Positions 20 through 44,181 of a stretch of DNA of 51,701 nucleotides are shown here, one piece after another. Origin of the DNA: Roseospira visakhapatnamensis (GTDB taxonomy: Bacteria; Pseudomonadota; Alphaproteobacteria; Rhodospirillales; Rhodospirillaceae); the NCBI RefSeq assembly GCF_014197915.1, contig NZ_JACIGK010000031.1, forward strand, positions 1 to 51,701. Reading direction: 5' to 3'. Each line of letters begins with the position of its first letter. Position 1 is the first letter of the stretch. The translations under genes were made by a program, and so were the position numbers. The notes under the pieces are model-generated. The model was not told where the DNA came from. It saw nothing but the letters and a program-made list of their open reading frames with translations, and ran no database searches.

Positions 20-95
20 CCAAGACCCCCTGCAAAAGGAATCTTGAATCACGTTTCCGCCCGGCTCGGAATCCCCTAATTGTCAACAGGCCCTA

Positions 96-146
96 GTGCA
101 GCGACGCATTCAAGGGATTCCCCCTTGAATGCAAGCGTCGCTGCAC
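96..146. repeat. IR2 hairpin, copy A
   Basis: Long imperfect inverted repeat: left arm 96-116 (GTGCAGCGACGCATTCAAGG...), right arm ending GCGTCGCTGCAC at 146, with a small bulge of about 3 nt. It lies beside palindrome IR1 copy A (160-219). The same hairpin accompanies IR1 at 32393-32443 and 39595-39645, always on the side of IR1 away from the neighbouring gene. There is no T-run, so it is not a textbook terminator. Confidence 0.8.
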
Positions 147-159
147 AAAATATTGTTAT

Positions 160-219
160 TAGTGCACTGATCCAGACAATAGACTGCGAACTGCATCTTT
201 TGTCTGGATCAGTGCACTA
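160..219 (-). repeat. IR1 palindromic MITE-like element, copy A
   Basis: Perfect 18-bp inverted repeats (GTGCACTGATCCAGACAA at 162-179 and its complement at 200-217) flank a 20-nt centre, and both outer edges are the dinucleotide TA (160-161, 218-219). On the minus strand the element begins 3 nt after the TGA of the membrane-protein gene at 223-798. Short size, terminal inverted repeats and TA flanks fit a MITE moved by a Tc1/mariner-IS630-type transposase, but no such transposase is present in the window. Confidence 0.8.
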
Positions 220-222
220 GGT

Positions 223-798
223 TCAGGAGGTCAGCAGACTGTAGGCGAAGACGTGGTTGAACACGCTGATGGTCAGTTGCAGGACGGTGACCCCGACCAC
301 GGACCACCAGGGCACCCGCAGGCCATGGCGCGCCAGGACGGCGGTATAGATCAGCGTCATGGCGATGATCATCAGGACCAGGCCGGTGGGCACGATGCCC
401 AGGCGCGCGCCCAGGTCCAGCGTCATGATGGCCAGCCCGGCCACAATCTGGAACCAGTTGAACGGCACCAGGAAATGGAACGCGCGGCCGCCGAAGCCGA
501 GGAAATCGCCCAGCGTCAGGATGACCAGCGGAAAGGCCACCCAGTCGATCACGTAGGCGATCAGCTGGATGGCGACGAACCGAACCGGGTGCGGCGCCGG
601 GTCCAGGATGGCACCGGCCATCAGGCTGACCGCCACGGTCACCAGGAACAGGGGCAGCAAGACGACCGGACCCCAGAACGACTTGAGGAGTCCCGACGCG
701 GAGGTCTCGAAGTAGTCCAGGCCCGTCCAGTCAAACCGCAGCACGCGAGCCACCCCGTGCAGCGCGCCGGCAATGTCCGCGGGACTGAGGAGCGGCAT
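223..798 (-). CDS. polytopic membrane protein of unknown function
   Basis: 191-aa hydrophobic protein with about five likely transmembrane segments, including residues ~40-62, 72-100 and 130-185. I do not recognise a named family; a role in transport or envelope function would be a guess. The N-terminus (MPLLSPADIAGALHGVARVL) is amphipathic rather than a cleavable signal. It follows dapE on the same strand after 70 bp and may be the last gene of the cytidylyltransferase-HAD-dapD-dapE unit. Its stop codon is followed after 3 nt by palindromic element IR1 copy A, which may serve as its 3' end. Confidence 0.7.
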   Translation of the reverse strand: MPLLSPADIAGALHGVARVLRFDWTGLDYFETSASGLLKSFWGPVVLLPLFLVTVAVSLMAGAILDPAPHPVRFVAIQLIAYVIDWVAFPLVILTLGDFLGFGGRAFHFLVPFNWFQIVAGLAIMTLDLGARLGIVPTGLVLMIIAMTLIYTAVLARHGLRVPWWSVVGVTVLQLTISVFNHVFAYSLLTS

Positions 799-8545: not shown

Positions 8546-8647
8546 GGGGGAGCGGGCCGGGGTCGCCCTGGCACCGCTTTGCGGTGCCAAGATCTGAAAC
8601 ATCCGGGCGCCTGCAAGGCGCCCGGGGGCGGATGAGTCACACTCATC
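8546..8647 (-). repeat. triple-hairpin repeat, copy 1
   Basis: About 100 bp nearly identical to 13141-13250. Three hairpins in series: 8570-8588 (GGCACCGC, loop TTT, complement), 8603-8625 (CCGGGCGCC, loop TGCAA, complement) and 8631-8647 (GATGAGT, loop CAC, complement). It begins 36 bp beyond the stop codon of the 460-aa gene at 8684-10066, in the same gene-relative orientation as copy 2 has to hom. Possible 3'-end structure or non-autonomous mobile repeat. Confidence 0.8.
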
Positions 8648-13086: not shown

Positions 13087-13155
13087 CCGGCCCGCTCCCC
13101 CACCCGGCCACCCACGGCAGTATACTTGGGGTGGCCGGGTGGGGGAGCGGGCCGG
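13087..13155. repeat. perfect 27-bp inverted repeat between hom and glpX
   Basis: Arms 13087-13113 and 13129-13155 are exact reverse complements over 27 bp, separated by a 15-nt loop that contains GTATAC. It is the most stable hairpin in the window. The right arm runs into triple-hairpin repeat copy 2, and its last 15 bases are shared with the start of copy 1. There is no T-run on either side. Confidence 0.85.
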
Positions 13156-13250
13156 TGCCGCCCTGGCACCGCCTTGCGGTGCCAGGATCTTGACCATTCG
13201 GGCGCCTGCAAGGCGCCCAGCGGAGGATGAGTCACACTCATCCTCCGCTG
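13141..13250 (-). repeat. triple-hairpin repeat, copy 2
   Basis: Nearly identical to 8546-8647. Hairpins: 13165-13183 (GGCACCGC, loop CTT), 13200-13218 (GGGCGCC, loop TGCAA) and 13218-13250 (15-bp stem CAGCGGAGGATGAGT, loop CAC). It lies 95 bp after the hom stop. The longer third stem compared with copy 1 shows base pairing extended on both sides, which hints at selection or transposition boundaries at paired positions. Confidence 0.8.
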
Positions 13251-17868: not shown

Positions 17869-18079
17869 CGGCGGAGAGCACCTGCAAGCAAGGGAGCGGG
17901 GCGCCATGACGGCGAACCCGGACACACCGACCTCACCGAGAGGGCGGGGCCGTGGGGCCTCGACGCGGGGCGGGACCCGCGTTCGGATGGATCATCGCTC
18001 AGAACCCGCCACGGTCCCCGCCCGCCCTCGGGGACCGCGTTCGGACGCGGCCCGACGGCGGCGCACAACACATTGTTTC

Positions 18080-18142
18080 CAGTGCACTTTCGATCCAGAC
18101 AAAAGAACGCGGACGGCATCTTTTGTCTGGATCAGTGCCCTA
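18080..18142 (-). repeat. IR1 palindromic element, copy B, at the dctP stop codon
   Basis: Minus-strand reading: TA-GGGCACTGATCCAGACAA, 20-nt centre, TTGTCTGGATC..., ending at TG (a TA in the other complete copies). The first TA plus G forms the TAG stop of dctP (18140-18142). Beyond it (18061-18079) a fragment resembling the linker and the start of hairpin IR2 remains (AAACAATGTGTTGTGCGC read on the minus strand); the rest of IR2 is lost or diverged. Confidence 0.75.
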
Positions 18143-19162
18143 GGGGCGCAGGTCGCGGGCGGCGTCCAGAAGCTGCCGGCCGAGGTCGCCGGTGGCCGCG
18201 AGGTAACTGTCGCGTACCGGTTCCACGGCCCCGTCCCAGGCGGCCAGATCCGCGTCGGTCAGTTCCACGACGTTGGCGTGCTCGCGGGTTTCCTTGATGG
18301 CCTCGGCCTCGATCACCTGGATCCGCTCGTTGATCCAGGTCTCGGCGGCGGCGGCGGACTCGGTGATGATGGCCCTGTGCTCATCGCTCAGGCCCTGCCA
18401 CACATCCTCGTTGATCAGCACCACGAACTCGATGGCCGCCACGTTGGCCACGGTCACGGTGTCCATCACCTCCCACAGCTTGCGGCCGGTCACGGCGGTG
18501 ATGCCGGTCAAGCCGGCGTCGACGGTGCCGCGCTGGTAGGCCATGTACTGCTCGGACCCGGAGATCAGGGTCGGCACGCCGCCCACGGCCTCGACGAAAT
18601 CGCCGAGGGTCTTGCCGAACACCCGGACCTTGAGGTCCTGCATGTCGGCCGGTGTGCGCAGCGGCGTGTCCTTGGACAGCATCACGGCGCTGCCATAGGC
18701 CTGCCACCACAGCACGCGGGCGCCGGTCTCCAGGATGGCGGCGTCGATGGGTCCCCGCACCGGGCCGTCCTTGGCGGTGGCCTTGAACAGGCTGTCATAG
18801 GTGGGGAAGGTGAAGGGCACGTAGAAGAGATCCACGGCCGGGATGGTGCCGGCGAACCGGGTCAAGGAGGCCACGCCCATCTCGATGGCGCCGGAGGAGA
18901 CGGCCTGCGGTACCTCCTTGTCCTTGTAGAGCTGCGCCGAATCATAGATCTCGACGGTCAGGTCGCCACCGCTCTTCTCCTCGACCAGGTCCTTGAACAC
19001 CCGCATGTTCTGGCCGAGATGATGCTTCATCGGCAGTTGCAAGGTGATGCGCAAGGTCTCGGCCCGCGCCTGATCAGCCAGGCTGGTCAGGCCCAGTGAC
19101 AGGCCGCAGGCCAGCGCGGCGGCGGCAACGGTGCGGCCGAGGCCGCGGCGGTGGAACGACAT
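18140..19162 (-). CDS. dctP: TRAP transporter solute-binding protein (DctP)
   Basis: 340-aa periplasmic binding protein. Signal peptide at residues 1-34 with likely cleavage after ARA (QARA|ETLRITLQ). Family features: MKHHLGQNMRVFKDLVEEKSGG, YDSAQLYKDKEVPQAV, and the substrate-carboxylate region around KVRVFGKTLGDFVEAVGGVPT. I place the start at 19162, where AGGGAGAAG precedes the ATG and gives a normal signal peptide; the frame is open 65 codons further upstream. Substrate is probably a C4-dicarboxylate or other organic acid. Its stop codon TAG is built by the end of element IR1 copy B. Confidence 0.92.
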   Translation of the reverse strand: MSFHRRGLGRTVAAAALACGLSLGLTSLADQARAETLRITLQLPMKHHLGQNMRVFKDLVEEKSGGDLTVEIYDSAQLYKDKEVPQAVSSGAIEMGVASLTRFAGTIPAVDLFYVPFTFPTYDSLFKATAKDGPVRGPIDAAILETGARVLWWQAYGSAVMLSKDTPLRTPADMQDLKVRVFGKTLGDFVEAVGGVPTLISGSEQYMAYQRGTVDAGLTGITAVTGRKLWEVMDTVTVANVAAIEFVVLINEDVWQGLSDEHRAIITESAAAAETWINERIQVIEAEAIKETREHANVVELTDADLAAWDGAVEPVRDSYLAATGDLGRQLLDAARDLRP

Positions 19163-30004: not shown

Positions 30005-32316
<2,312 letters not shown>

Positions 32317-32319
<3 letters not shown>

Positions 32320-32379
32320 TGCACTGATCCAGACAATAGATGCAGTCCGCATTCTTTTGTCTGGATCGGAAGTGCCCTA
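32317..32379 (+). repeat. IR1 palindromic element, copy C, at the hemB stop codon
   Basis: TA-GTGCACTGATCCAGACAA, 20-nt centre containing ATGCAGTCCGCAT, TTGTCTGGATCGGAAGTGCCC-TA. The left TA (32317-32318) plus G is the hemB stop TAG; the right TA is at 32378-32379. The sequence AAACAACGTTTTG and hairpin IR2 follow. Confidence 0.85.
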
Positions 32380-32392
32380 GAAACAACGTTTT

Positions 32393-32443
32393 GTGCAGCG
32401 ACGTTTGCATTCAAGGGGGACTCCCTTGAATGCGTCTCTGCAC
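32393..32443 (+). repeat. IR2 hairpin, copy C
   Basis: Arms starting GTGCAGCGACG (32393) and ending TCTCTGCAC (32443), with the shared core ATTCAAGGG-GGACT-CCCTTGAAT. One mismatch and a small bulge weaken the stem compared with copy D. Downstream bases (GAGGACC) still align with copies A and D. Confidence 0.8.
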
Positions 32444-32595
32444 GAGGACCACCGCGAGTCGACCGGAGCGGGGCATGTTGCTCCGGACCCACGTCGGCCG
32501 CGCGACAGTATTTGTGCTCCCGGACACGCTTGGTTTGCGTCAGGATGGACGCGCGGGTGTTTCATTTTGATCGCCCGTAATGATCGTGTCAGCGG

Positions 32596-38134: not shown

Positions 38135-39523
38135 GTGACCCCTCCCACGACCGCCGCCGTCCGCGACTGGTGGAGCAGCCTCGCCGTCTACCGCGACATC
38201 CGCGTCATTCGGGTGCTGTTCCTGGGCTTCTCCAGTGGCCTCCCCCTGCTGCTGGTGTTCTCCACCCTCTCCTACTGGCTGGCGGAGGCCGAGGTCTCCA
38301 AGACCGCCATCGGTCTGTTCGCCTTCGCCAGCACCGCCTACGGCTTCAAGTTCCTGTGGTCGCCGCTGGTGGACCGGCTGGCGCTGCCGCCGCTGACGAC
38401 CTGGCTGGGGCAGCGGCGGGGCTGGCTGATCGCCGCGCAGGCGCTGGTCATCGGCTGCATGCTGGGGCTGGGGGCCACCGACCCGACCACCGACCTGTGG
38501 TGGACCGCGGTGTGGGCGGTGCTGCTGGCCTTCGCCTCGGCCACGCAGGACATCGTCATTGACGCTTACCGCGTGGAAAGCCTGGAGGAACACCAACTGG
38601 GCGCCGGCGCCGGGACCATCGTGCTGGGCTATCGCATCGGCATGGTGGCGGCCAGCGGCGGGGCGCTGATCATCGCCGACATGGCCGGCTGGTTCTGGGC
38701 CTATGCGGCCATGGGTGGGCTCATGGCCGTGGGCATGACCACCGTCCTTCTGAGCCCCGAGCCCGACCGCGCCGCCGCCACCGCCTCCGCGCGGCGGGAA
38801 GAGACGCGGGTCGATGCCTTCCTGGCGCGGCGCGCTCACATGCCCGCGTGGGCCCGCGACACCCTGGGATTCCTGTACGGCGCGGTGGTCTGCCCGTTCG
38901 TGGACTTCATGACGCGACGCCACTGGATCCTGATCCTCGTGTTCATCGCGCTCTACAAGTACGGCGACGCGCTGTTGGGTATCATGGCCATGCCGTTCTA
39001 CGAGGACATCGGCTTCACCAAGACCGAGGTGGGCGTGATCTCCAAGGGCTACGGCGTGGTCATGACCATCATCGGCGGTCTGGCCGGGGGGGTACTGGTG
39101 GCCCGTGCCGGGCTCCTCAAGGCGCTGCTGATCTGCGGCATCGCGCAGGCGGCCTCCAACCTGGTGTTCGCATGGCAGGCCTATGTGGGCGCGGACGTGG
39201 GCTGGCTGGTGGTCACCATCAGCGTCGAGAACCTGACCGGCGGCATGGGCACGGCGGCCTTCGTCGCCTATCTGTCGTCGCTGTGCAACATCGCCTACAC
39301 GGCCACGCAATACGCCCTGGTCTCCAGCCTGATGAGCTTCGCGCGCACCTTCTTCTCGGCGGGCGGCGGCTGGCTGGCGGATCACGTGGACTGGGTCAGC
39401 TACTTCCTGATCACCACGCTCGCAGCCGTGCCCGGGCTGGTGCTGCTGCTGTGGATGATGAAGCTGTTCCCCAGCGATGTCCGCCGGGCCGATCCCAGGG
39501 ACGCGCTGGCGGACAGCGACTAA
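38135..39523 (+). CDS. AmpG-like MFS permease (muropeptide transporter)
   Basis: 462-aa inner-membrane protein with ~12-14 TM helices. AmpG-type features: LLFLGFSSGLPLLLVFSTL-like N-terminus, WSPLVDRL, SATQDIVIDAYRVE and VENLTGGMGTAAFVAYLSSLCN. AmpG imports anhydromuropeptides for wall recycling and beta-lactamase signalling. GTG start at 38135 with GAGAGA upstream. Its stop TAA is formed with the TA end of palindromic element IR1 copy D. Confidence 0.88.
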   Translation: MTPPTTAAVRDWWSSLAVYRDIRVIRVLFLGFSSGLPLLLVFSTLSYWLAEAEVSKTAIGLFAFASTAYGFKFLWSPLVDRLALPPLTTWLGQRRGWLIAAQALVIGCMLGLGATDPTTDLWWTAVWAVLLAFASATQDIVIDAYRVESLEEHQLGAGAGTIVLGYRIGMVAASGGALIIADMAGWFWAYAAMGGLMAVGMTTVLLSPEPDRAAATASARREETRVDAFLARRAHMPAWARDTLGFLYGAVVCPFVDFMTRRHWILILVFIALYKYGDALLGIMAMPFYEDIGFTKTEVGVISKGYGVVMTIIGGLAGGVLVARAGLLKALLICGIAQAASNLVFAWQAYVGADVGWLVVTISVENLTGGMGTAAFVAYLSSLCNIAYTATQYALVSSLMSFARTFFSAGGGWLADHVDWVSYFLITTLAAVPGLVLLLWMMKLFPSDVRRADPRDALADSD

Positions 39524-39583
39524 GGCACTGATCCAGACGAAAGATGCAGTCCGCATTCTCTTGTTTGGATCGAAAGTGCACTA
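39521..39583 (+). repeat. IR1 palindromic element, copy D, at the AmpG-like stop codon
   Basis: TA-AGGCACTGATCCAGACGA, centre with ATGCAGTCCGCAT, TTGTTTGGATCGAAAGTGCAC-TA. The left TA with the next A makes the stop TAA (39521-39523). Two substitutions in the arms show some age. Confidence 0.85.
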
Positions 39584-39594
39584 AAAACAACGTC

Positions 39595-39645
39595 TTGCGC
39601 AGCGACGCCTTCAAGGGGGACTCCCTTGAAGGCGTCGCTGCGCAA
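39595..39645 (+). repeat. IR2 hairpin, copy D (perfect 23-bp stem)
   Basis: Arms 39595-39617 and 39623-39645 are perfect complements around the loop GGACT. It is the best-preserved IR2 copy and follows IR1 copy D after the linker AAAACAACGTC. The arms differ from copies A and C by compensated changes (GCGC against GTGC, and a 4-nt shorter middle), so pairing is kept while sequence drifts. Confidence 0.85.
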
Positions 39646-39915
39646 GGGCCTGAAACGTGCAACACCCGTCACCCGCGCGGCGGGTGTTGGGTTTCCGCGC
39701 GCTTGCGTCATGGGTTCGACCGATTTCGGGCGCGGAAGGACCGGCTTCAGTTGTCAGGGGGTCCACCGCGATCCAAGATGGATCGAACGGTCACGTCGCA
39801 TGCCCAACGTCCGGGTCATGCGACTTTGACGCGGGCAGGGACTCGCGCGCCAACCATGGGGCGCAGAGGCAGGGGGAATGCCGACACCCTTTTCGACCAA
39901 GAGAGGTGCCATCCA
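39646..39915. other. leader region of the antiporter-usp operon
   Basis: No gene. It contains GTCGCATG (39795-39802) and CATGCGAC (39817-39824) forming a hairpin followed by TTT, and GATCC-AAGAT-GGATC slightly upstream. If transcription begins upstream, the first hairpin is a candidate attenuator. The open frame across this region that joins the antiporter frame arises from repeat sequence and has no antiporter character. Confidence 0.4.
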
Positions 39916-42512: not shown

Positions 42513-42752
42513 TCCGGATCGTATGCCCCCCGCCGCGCTCCCGTGAGGAACCGGCCGCCGGTAGGCCGCCCCGGGCCTCGCCTCGTCCGCTCCCCCTTGG
42601 CATGGCCCCGATCCGGGGAGTAGAACGGCGCGGCCGGTCCCTGCGCCCGTCACAGGCCACGCCACCGGCCATGAACCGCACCCGGTGCGGCGACGCCGCC
42701 AAGGGCTCATCCCTGATGGCCTGGGTCGTTGCACATGATCTTGAATTGAGGG
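42513..42752. other. gene-free stretch upstream of trpB2
   Basis: Together with the following palindrome it makes 310 bp between usp and trpB2. No leader peptide rich in Trp codons and no anti-TRAP or T-box feature was recognised. GATCCGGATC directly follows the usp stop. Confidence 0.35.
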
Positions 42753-42802
42753 CCCTGATCCAGACAAACGCGTGCAGACGGCATTGTTTGTCTGGATCAG
42801 AG
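42753..42802 (+). repeat. IR1 palindromic element, copy E, in the trpB2 leader
   Basis: Perfect 15-bp arms CTGATCCAGACAAAC (42755-42769) and complement (42786-42800) around a centre related to the other IR1 copies. The outer bases have diverged and no TA flanks remain. It ends about 20 bp before the trpB2 ATG, with the ribosome-binding GGGGGAG immediately after it; it is the only copy located upstream of a gene. Confidence 0.75.
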
Positions 42803-42822
42803 CACCAGGGGGAGCCGCCAAG

Positions 42823-44181
42823 ATGAGTGAGAGCACCAAGTACCTGCTTGATGAAGAGCACCTGCCCAAGGCCTGGTACAATCTGGCCGCCGACCTGGAG
42901 GCACCCGCCCCACCGGTCAACCCCGGCACGGGCCAGCCGATGGGGCCGGACGACCTGACGCGGTTGTTCGCGACGGGCGTCGTCGAGCAGGAAATGAGCA
43001 CCGAGCGCTGGATCGACATCCCCCAACCGGTCCGCGAGGTCTACCGCCTGTGGCGACCGTCGCCGTTGATCCGCGCCCGACGGCTGGAAAAGGCCCTGGA
43101 TACCCCCGCGCGCATCTTCTTCAAGTACGAGGGCGTCAGCCCCGCCGGCAGCCACAAGCCCAACTCGGCCATCGCCCAGGCGTTCTACAACCAGCAGGAC
43201 GGTGTGAAACGGCTGGTGACCGAGACCGGCGCGGGGCAGTGGGGCAGTTCGCTCGCCTTCGCCGGTGACCTGTTCGATCTCGACGTGCGGGTCTACATGG
43301 TGAAGATCTCCTTCAATCAGAAGCCCTACCGCCGGGCGCTGATGGAGACCTATGGCGCCACCTGCATCGCCAGCCCGTCCTCCGAGACCGCCGCCGGCCG
43401 CGCCATCCTGGAGGCCAACCCCGACTCCAACGGCTCCCTGGGTATCGCCATCTCCGAGGCCGTGGAAATCGCCGCCAGCCGCGACGACACCAAGTACGCC
43501 TTGGGCAGCGTGATGAACCACGTCTGCCTGCACCAGACCATCATCGGCGAAGAGGCCATGATGCAGATGGAGATGGCCGACGCCGACCCGGACATCGTCA
43601 TCGGGTGTGTGGGTGGTGGCTCCAACTTCGCCGGCCTGGCCTTCCCCTACATGCGCGAGAAACTGAAAGGCAAGGCGGTCCGCTGCATCGGTGTCGAGCC
43701 CACGTCTTGCCCGACGCTCACCAAGGGCGCGGTGGCCTATGACTTCGGCGACACCGGCAAGCTGACCCCGCTGGTGCGGATGCATACCCTCGGCTCCGGC
43801 TTCATGCCGCCGGGCACGCACGCGGGCGGCCTGCGCTATCACGGCATGGCGCCCATGGTCAGCCTGGCCATGGAAAAGGGGCTGATGGAGGCCCGCTCCT
43901 ACCAGCAGACCGAGTGCTTCGCCGCCGCCGTGACGTTCGCCCGCAACGAGGGCATCGTGCCCGCGCCGGAATCCTCGCACGCCATCAAGGCGGTCATGGA
44001 CGAGGCCCTGCGCTGCAAGGCCGAGGGCAAGGCCGATACCATCCTGTTCAATCTGTCCGGCCACGGGCATTTCGACATGCAGGCGTACACCGACTACTTC
44101 GGCGGCAAGATGACCGACACGCCGTTCGATCAGGCGGCGCTCGACGCGTCGCTGGCCACGCTTCCCAAGGTGGCCGTCTAG
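42823..44181 (+). CDS. trpB: tryptophan synthase beta-like protein, TrpB2 type
   Basis: 452-aa fold-type II PLP enzyme. PLP-Lys in EGVSPAGSHKPNSAIAQA, ETGAGQWGSSLAFAG (catalytic Glu) and GCVGGGSNFAGLAFP (phosphate cup). The long N-terminus and PAGSHKPN rather than GAHKxN identify TrpB2, which lacks the TrpA interaction loop and may work alone with indole. No trp genes are adjacent. ATG at 42823 follows GGGGGAG; the frame is open upstream through repeat sequence. Confidence 0.92.
   Translation: MSESTKYLLDEEHLPKAWYNLAADLEAPAPPVNPGTGQPMGPDDLTRLFATGVVEQEMSTERWIDIPQPVREVYRLWRPSPLIRARRLEKALDTPARIFFKYEGVSPAGSHKPNSAIAQAFYNQQDGVKRLVTETGAGQWGSSLAFAGDLFDLDVRVYMVKISFNQKPYRRALMETYGATCIASPSSETAAGRAILEANPDSNGSLGIAISEAVEIAASRDDTKYALGSVMNHVCLHQTIIGEEAMMQMEMADADPDIVIGCVGGGSNFAGLAFPYMREKLKGKAVRCIGVEPTSCPTLTKGAVAYDFGDTGKLTPLVRMHTLGSGFMPPGTHAGGLRYHGMAPMVSLAMEKGLMEARSYQQTECFAAAVTFARNEGIVPAPESSHAIKAVMDEALRCKAEGKADTILFNLSGHGHFDMQAYTDYFGGKMTDTPFDQAALDASLATLPKVAV

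Follow-up and report, generated by a model that had tools for sequence, protein, structure and literature searches.

A MITE-like double-hairpin repeat that probably inserts at CTAG-like sites and rebuilds native stop codons in Roseospira visakhapatnamensis and its relatives

A family of ~131-bp repeats in the genome of Roseospira visakhapatnamensis forms the stop codons of many predicted genes with its own ends, and a homologous family does so in a genus of another bacterial family. We consider it quite probable that this is a MITE-like repeat whose insertions target the TA of CTAG-like sites and rebuild native stop codons, the surviving copies being gathered at stops and at intergenic CTAG. 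The element itself, with two hairpins joined by a short linker, would be non-autonomous and moved by a transposase; its insertion would duplicate the TA and yield C-TA-[G...C]-TA-G. With the G after TA supplied by each end on its own strand, a stop of the form xxC-TAG would stay intact in either orientation, and between convergent genes one insertion could serve the stops at both ends.

Structure of the repeat and its copies in the window

The window, that is, the whole stretch of 51,701 nt analyzed here, had been described as holding five copies of a TA-bounded palindrome, and the profile and covariance-model searches recovered all five (Table 1). Three of them (32317+, 39521+, and 18142−) were reported to begin exactly at a stop codon, and they indeed open with TAG, TAA, and TAG, the stops of predicted genes; the TA of the fourth (219−) begins 3 nt past a TGA, as stated, while the fifth lies 14 nt from the predicted start codon of a PALP-family enzyme gene at 42823-44181(+). 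The palindrome delimited at 32317-32379 is real but is only the left half of the element, whose homology extends to 32446 and includes a second hairpin. In addition, the window contains a second repeat, with 102-nt copies at 8546-8647 and 13141-13242 that are 89% identical; a perfect 27-bp inverted repeat with a 15-nt loop (13087-13155) overlaps one of these copies.

Table 1. Copies of the repeat and associated features in the 51,701-nt window
Feature	Position	Strand	Evidence or remark
Copy A, full-length, both ends CTAG	93..220	-	TGA of gene 223-798(-) at 225-223
Copy B, full-length, right end CGAG	32316..32446	+	nhmmer 142 bits, model 1-131; covariance model 155 bits
Copy B, hairpin 1 (IR1)	32317..32379	+	sequence, fold
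Copy B, hairpin 2, overlooked in the preliminary description	32391..32446	+	sequence; whole-element fold -68.2 kcal/mol, z -9.2
TAG stop of delta-aminolevulinic acid dehydratase (hemB-like) gene 31345-32319(+)	32317..32319	+	left TA+G of the element
Copy C, full-length	39520..39646	+	opens with the TAA stop (39521-39523) of MFS transporter gene 38135-39523(+)
Copy D, left part only (model 1-88)	18056..18143	-	profile search
TAG of copy D	18142-18140	-	stop of DctP-type solute-binding protein gene 18140-19162
Copy E, degenerate, ends CTGG and CCGG, without TA at the ends	42682..42808	-	

A search of the genome with positions 32316-32450 gave matches that mostly span ~131 bases and are bounded at both ends by CTAG-like sequence, the repeat unit thus being composed of CTA-G, hairpin 1, a linker, hairpin 2, and C-TAG. 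The left part of the consensus reads C-TA-GTGCACTGATCC, hairpin 1, and CGAAAGTGCAC(T/G)AG, then AAACAATGTTTT, and the right part that follows reads GTGCAGCGACG, hairpin 2, and CGTCGCTGCAC-TA-G; each end begins with G on its own strand. Among the 45 full-length copies, CTAG was found at 27 left and 27 right ends, and 27 of the remaining 36 ends were one substitution off. The inner and outer end bases are equally little varied (43, 41, 42, and 41 of 45), so that the copies of this genome do not fix the length of the duplication. Short forms with a single hairpin also occur, for example one with hairpin 1 and CTAG at both ends (C24:54703) and one with hairpin 2 (C2:104158).

Six copies folded singly gave energies of −68 to −87 kcal/mol (z of −9 to −14). 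Moreover, 19 of the 33 modelled pairs were changed on both sides in the 64 distinct copies from this genome and the same genus, which 0 of 500 shuffles reached, a result that is not a probability because the sequences are related. The motif GANTC was located at the hairpin-2 loop in 30 of these 64 copies (GAATC in an example from the second family, below), and its overall frequency was 0.73 per copy, compared with 0.51 after mononucleotide shuffling. Rfam gave no match in the window at the gathering score.

Distribution across genomes

Profile search of the stretches of the R. visakhapatnamensis genome revealed 70 hits, corresponding to at least 68 sites after two split copies were merged; the halves of the split copies at C21:424 and C40:3946 were dropped before counting, and the hairpin-2-only copy lies outside the 68. 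With 150 candidates scored per genome, the covariance model matched in five of six genomes of the genus, and exact pattern matches were found in records from Rhodospira trueperi and an uncultured Rhodospira (4 stretches). Across the order, 297 genomes drawn evenly from the larger group were searched with at most two candidates scored in each, and six matched, comprising four of the same genus (R. visakhapatnamensis included) and two of g51, a genus of another family. The homologous g51 element is 121 bp long and has kept the outer stems, a CGAAA stretch, part of the linker, and both ends, while its inner stems differ in sequence with pairing retained. When 40 of the ~60 g51 candidates per genome were scored, 69 copies on overlapping stretches were obtained and grouped into 24 clusters, an approximate number as one cluster merges several arrays.

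Overlap with stop codons

An element end forms the TAG or TAA stop of a predicted gene at 34 of the 68 R. visakhapatnamensis sites, with the left end in 21 cases, the right end in 14, and both in 1. This does not indicate an orientation preference (21 versus 14, p = 0.31), and none was observed in g51 either. Compared with non-coding TA in 400 kb (103 stop and 773 intergenic), the overlap is not due to chance (odds ratio 7.5, p = 3e-13), and the suspicion of a non-random placement relative to stops is thereby borne out by copies collected with profile and covariance models, in both orientations. Genes were called by a codon-usage script at a threshold of 10 for the copies of this genome and its genus and of 12 for both backgrounds and the g51 sites; three of the stop genes score below 30 (C28, C47, and C10), and omitting them leaves 31 of 68.

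The picture changes when CTAG rather than TA is taken as the background. Element-free non-coding CTAG fell on stops in 17 of 47 cases (36%; 30 intergenic, with 19 further CTAG in coding sequence) in 400 kb of R. visakhapatnamensis and in 24 of 82 (29%; 58 intergenic) in 400 kb of g51, both backgrounds being element-poor stretches (one and two match regions) hand-picked once copy positions were known. Because CTAG is scarce in the coding sequence of these GC-rich genomes and about one-third of non-coding CTAG are stops, surviving insertions would collect at stops and at intergenic CTAG. Against this background, the 34 of 68 sites show an odds ratio of 1.8 (p = 0.18), and the low-scoring copies (18 of 44 at stops) one of 1.2 (p = 0.67), whereas high-scoring copies (16 of 24; odds ratio 3.5, p = 0.023) and copies with CTAG at both ends (15 of 20; odds ratio 5.3, p = 0.007) exceed it, in subset tests that overlap and with p values uncorrected for multiple testing. 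The same-genus relatives, a smaller set, had 6 of 20 sites at stops and no excess over CTAG availability. In g51, gene stops coincide with an element end in 15 of 24 site clusters, including 3 in which both ends are involved (odds ratio 4.0, p = 0.004), and pooling g51 with the R. visakhapatnamensis genome gave a Mantel-Haenszel odds ratio of 2.4 (p = 0.005). Target choice and the scarcity of CTAG in genes thus explain most of the stop pattern but leave an excess unaccounted for in the two main sets.

Accordingly, the first view of the element as a TA-targeting one whose leading G regenerates TAG keeps its core, with the correction that the favored target is CTAG and not any TA. Likewise, the "safe haven" at gene ends is right as an outcome and unproven as a strategy, the CTAG distribution explaining most of the coincidence. 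A general rule that all TA repeats prefer stops found no support, as none of the 11 end matches of a second TA repeat, with TAGAGCGTGTTGCGTGA ends, fell on a stop (as many as 4 mismatches were allowed, some matches are perhaps chance, and 2 of the 11 are preceded by C).

The remaining excess could reflect hairpins that are useful as mRNA 3′ ends (stabilizers or terminators), or a transposase that prefers 3′-end DNA, so that stops are occupied beyond CTAG availability. The overlapping, uncorrected high-scoring and double-CTAG subsets, the g51 and pooled results, and the covarying hairpins all point in this direction, while the full R. visakhapatnamensis set, the low-scoring copies, the same-genus relatives, and the absent orientation preference do not. 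Moreover, older copies are not richer in stops, as seen from the proportions in the low- and high-scoring groups. Full-length copies at stops do score higher than the others (n = 23, median 140.7 bits, versus n = 22, 114.3 bits; p = 0.009), but the ratio of paired to unpaired divergence was 0.58 at stop sites and 0.56 at non-stop sites, so that added structural selection at stops is not indicated; the selection for a 3′ hairpin that the preliminary description had also offered is unproven. On balance, we regard 3′-end selection or directed targeting as possible but unlikely.

A bolder version holds that evolution, in at least two families of a single bacterial order, has led a CTAG-targeting hairpin repeat to use stops as landing sites beyond CTAG availability, with ends that rebuild TAG on both strands and cores that were replaced wholesale yet stayed paired. 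We put it forward only tentatively, as a rather doubtful proposition; if true, a uniform double-hairpin 3′ end would have been installed on many unrelated genes and, at some sites, on both of two convergent genes.

Native origin of the stops

To place the stops relative to the insertions, the element-free ends of orthologous genes in five relatives were examined for 19 R. visakhapatnamensis genes (30 loci, 40 regions of 115 matches). Sixty-nine of the 74 element-free ends lie within 3 residues of the R. visakhapatnamensis end, indicating that the stops are native and pre-date the element. TAG terminates 33 of these 74 ends, compared with 32 of the 137 other genes located on those stretches (p = 0.002), and CTAG is present in 10 of the former and 8 of the latter (p = 0.07). 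One insertion is common to R. visakhapatnamensis (C33:15949) and a relative (G005:C580), at the same stop, with TTAG in one and CTAG in the other.

The element might instead create new stops by inserting at any TA near a gene end, truncating or extending the protein, and some reading frames do end inside it (C20:480, with a TGA at +10, and an IS1380-like copy at C41). The 69 matching orthologous ends refute this for most of the 19 genes compared, and as a general account it appears extremely improbable. Separately, the gene at C3:147561 has a hairpin-1-only copy at its stop, and its orthologue in another genome (G003, L188) has TAGAGTGTTTTGCGTGA at the stop, perhaps another repeat at the same place. 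Many natural genes carry a strong double hairpin right after the stop and have element-free orthologues in sister species, by which effects on mRNA 3′ ends are testable.

Insertion mechanism

Fifteen joined g51 flank pairs were searched, and five matches bridged the junction in the other g51 genome (G053/G070). At each of the five empty sites, the flanks are separated by exactly four bases, of which the central two are TA (CTAG twice, CTAA twice, and GTAA once), the length expected from a gain of G...C (115) + 2 bp. Consistently, the longest of six head-to-tail arrays has a period of 117, that is, G...C (115) + 2; the arrays are found at G053:C4:36335-36805 and at five more places in the two g51 genomes, with two to four copies in one orientation each. 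Six internal array junctions (L293, L295, and L298) read CCAG, CTCG, or CGAG, of the form C-NN-G and none with TA. The inner G and C are kept in all 37 g51 copies listed, and the right outer base is not G in 5 of them; one further g51 copy (L322) departs from the inner G/C conservation. A TA duplication within CTAG-like targets would fit the empty sites, the array period, and the g51 end bases.

TA was present at the empty site in five of the six filled/empty comparisons overall, so that the TA duplication expected at first was matched at every g51 site but not in the remaining case. There, the element lies inside the transposase gene of two related insertion sequences (L036 2998-3127 and L037 3001-3127; 93% identical) that we take to be IS1380-like (Pfam name DDE_Tnp_1_4), and element-free copies of this insertion sequence exist in a relative; the element stands between AA and TG, and the empty site is GA, not TA. 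Furthermore, the six array junctions without TA count against such a duplication, and three of the five g51 comparisons pair an empty CTAA or GTAA with a filled site having CTAG at both ends, for which the TA-duplication model needs later substitutions. Young copies often have one altered end, explained in the model only by rapid later change; such change does occur, as an orthologous pair shows CTCG in one copy (L285) and CTAG in the other (L296).

Tandem arrays are typical of BIMEs. Together with the two hairpins, each with CTAG just outside, and with a right end of CTAG at the three g51 sites whose empty counterpart ends in A, they recall a REP/BIME-like or IS200/IS605-like element mobilized by a Y1 (HUH) transposase, with a tag and hairpin per end and no target duplication. 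However, the right outer base is A, C, or T in the 5 exceptional g51 copies, which argues that it is not part of the element, and the ~60-nt hairpins exceed the 20 to 40 bp described for REPs (PMC3733652). HUH/REP-like mobilization had been raised from TTAG at left ends only, and it is disfavored by g51 right ends of CTAA, CTAC, and CTAT and by the TA empty sites; we consider it very unlikely. TA duplication at CTAG-like targets, as preferred here, would offer a simple quantitative route to a near-neutral mobile element, requiring a palindromic, TAG-containing target and ends that rebuild TAG on both strands.

Search for an autonomous partner

No autonomous element with matching ends was detected when the two-end terminal pattern was searched in six genomes, and no convincing GTGCA-type end pair was found around DDE_3 transposases in six genomes or IS630 and DDE_Tnp_1 transposases in five. 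Likewise, neither inverted-repeat scans around some of the transposases found and the element profile on 45 stretches, nor an end-pair scan of 53 transposase stretches and g51, gave a convincing partner or GTGCA-type pair; the R. visakhapatnamensis genome is a draft, and the partner may be missing from it. Weak end pairs (L234/L258 and L088/L240) look like chance, and an IS630-like fragment ~1 kb from C3:147561 lies outside the repeat. Of four loci that we take to be of IS630 type, two yielded ends, of the types TTATACCAACGG and TTAGAGCG, and none were shared with the element.

Several further sequences were noticed during these searches. One element copy, broken into two parts that lie apart, overlaps the remnant of an IS630-like transposase (L252 3742-4136), and the right-end pattern matches outside known copies at C10:21413 (R. 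visakhapatnamensis), G002 C82:20542, and G003 C15:49309, the first two of which share 22 bases. The second TA repeat family, with TAGAGCGTGTTGCGTGA ends, has R. visakhapatnamensis blocks at C6:11058, C4:12464, and C21:1 and was also seen in L107 and L112; it abuts the element in one case (C4:15460), and its ends are similar to a terminal repeat of IS630 type in G002. In addition, identical sequences occur near R. visakhapatnamensis contig ends (C21 ~208-267, C42 ~33-92, and C47 below 92; C26 above 70195 and C37 29-88), where they adjoin or disrupt different copies of the element at CTAG or close to it, which suggests insertion sequences for which the repeat serves as a target.

Comparison with known repeats

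A literature search, mainly of freely accessible papers, yielded no report that we recognized of this repeat family or of stop-codon placement on this scale. REP/BIME elements are defined by a GTAG or CGTC tag and palindromes of 20 to 40 bp (PMC3733652), while the present repeat has CTAG ends and ~60-nt hairpins. IS630 family members are described as inserting at TA with duplication (PMC2170065), and a CTAG preference of an IS630-based transposon is given in the title of Tenzen & Ohtsubo 1991, cited there. Among the traits of IS630/Tc1-mariner MITEs, our repeat would have the TA duplication and has the CTAG preference (with the caveat that only two of the five g51 empty sites read CTAG today), but terminal repeats shared with a resident IS630 were not found; it may therefore work like an IS630-type MITE, judging from the sequences, without being filed as one.

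Insertion at gene 3′ ends is common to our element and to the MITE-like QMITE2 (Coxiella) and RU-1 (enterobacteria), which sometimes end the reading frame (PMC5896051 and PMC2759123); those are described as single cases in which residues were added or the normal stop was removed, whereas the element here regenerates the native stop at many sites. In Brucella, IS711 duplicates TA at YTAR and is reported to prefer Bru-RS1, a 103-bp palindromic repeat (PMC2266754 and PMC3163539), and by analogy another insertion sequence could behave alike. Compared by description, Bru-RS1/Bru-RS2 with IS711 resemble the contig-end sequences that abut the CTAG of several copies here, although the portions of those two papers that deal with them mention no stop codons. 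MITEPsy1 of Pseudomonas syringae, with 100 nt and a CTAG or YTAA target, is similar in size and target type but is reported to duplicate 4 nt, to carry 18-nt terminal repeats, and to derive possibly from ISPsy2 (PMC3189936). The pneumococcal RUP shares the ~100-bp size, TA-containing target, high copy number, and insertions in IS elements (PMC2229807); it differs in forming one end-to-end stem rather than two linked hairpins and in sharing terminal repeats with IS630-Spn1, a kind of partner that our searches did not find for the element.

By published descriptions of architecture, the closest likeness appears to be with the alphaproteobacterial CIR, the Caulobacter CcrM-associated intergenic repeats (Chen & Shapiro 2003, via PMC2229807 and PMC10969869). 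CIR are described as ~110 bp long, with two long inverted-repeat arms, a linker, TA termini, and GANTC at one terminal loop (PMC2229807), and our element likewise has two arms with a linker and TA ends; GANTC lies at the hairpin-2 loop in 30 of its 64 distinct copies. CIR are reported to be absent inside genes (PMC2229807 and PMC10969869), whereas about half of the R. visakhapatnamensis copies touch a stop codon, some copies sit inside transposase genes (the two related IS1380-like ones), and one overlaps the IS630-like remnant. The cross-family pair described here, with outer stems conserved and inner stems replaced, helps to define what CIR-like repeats must keep.
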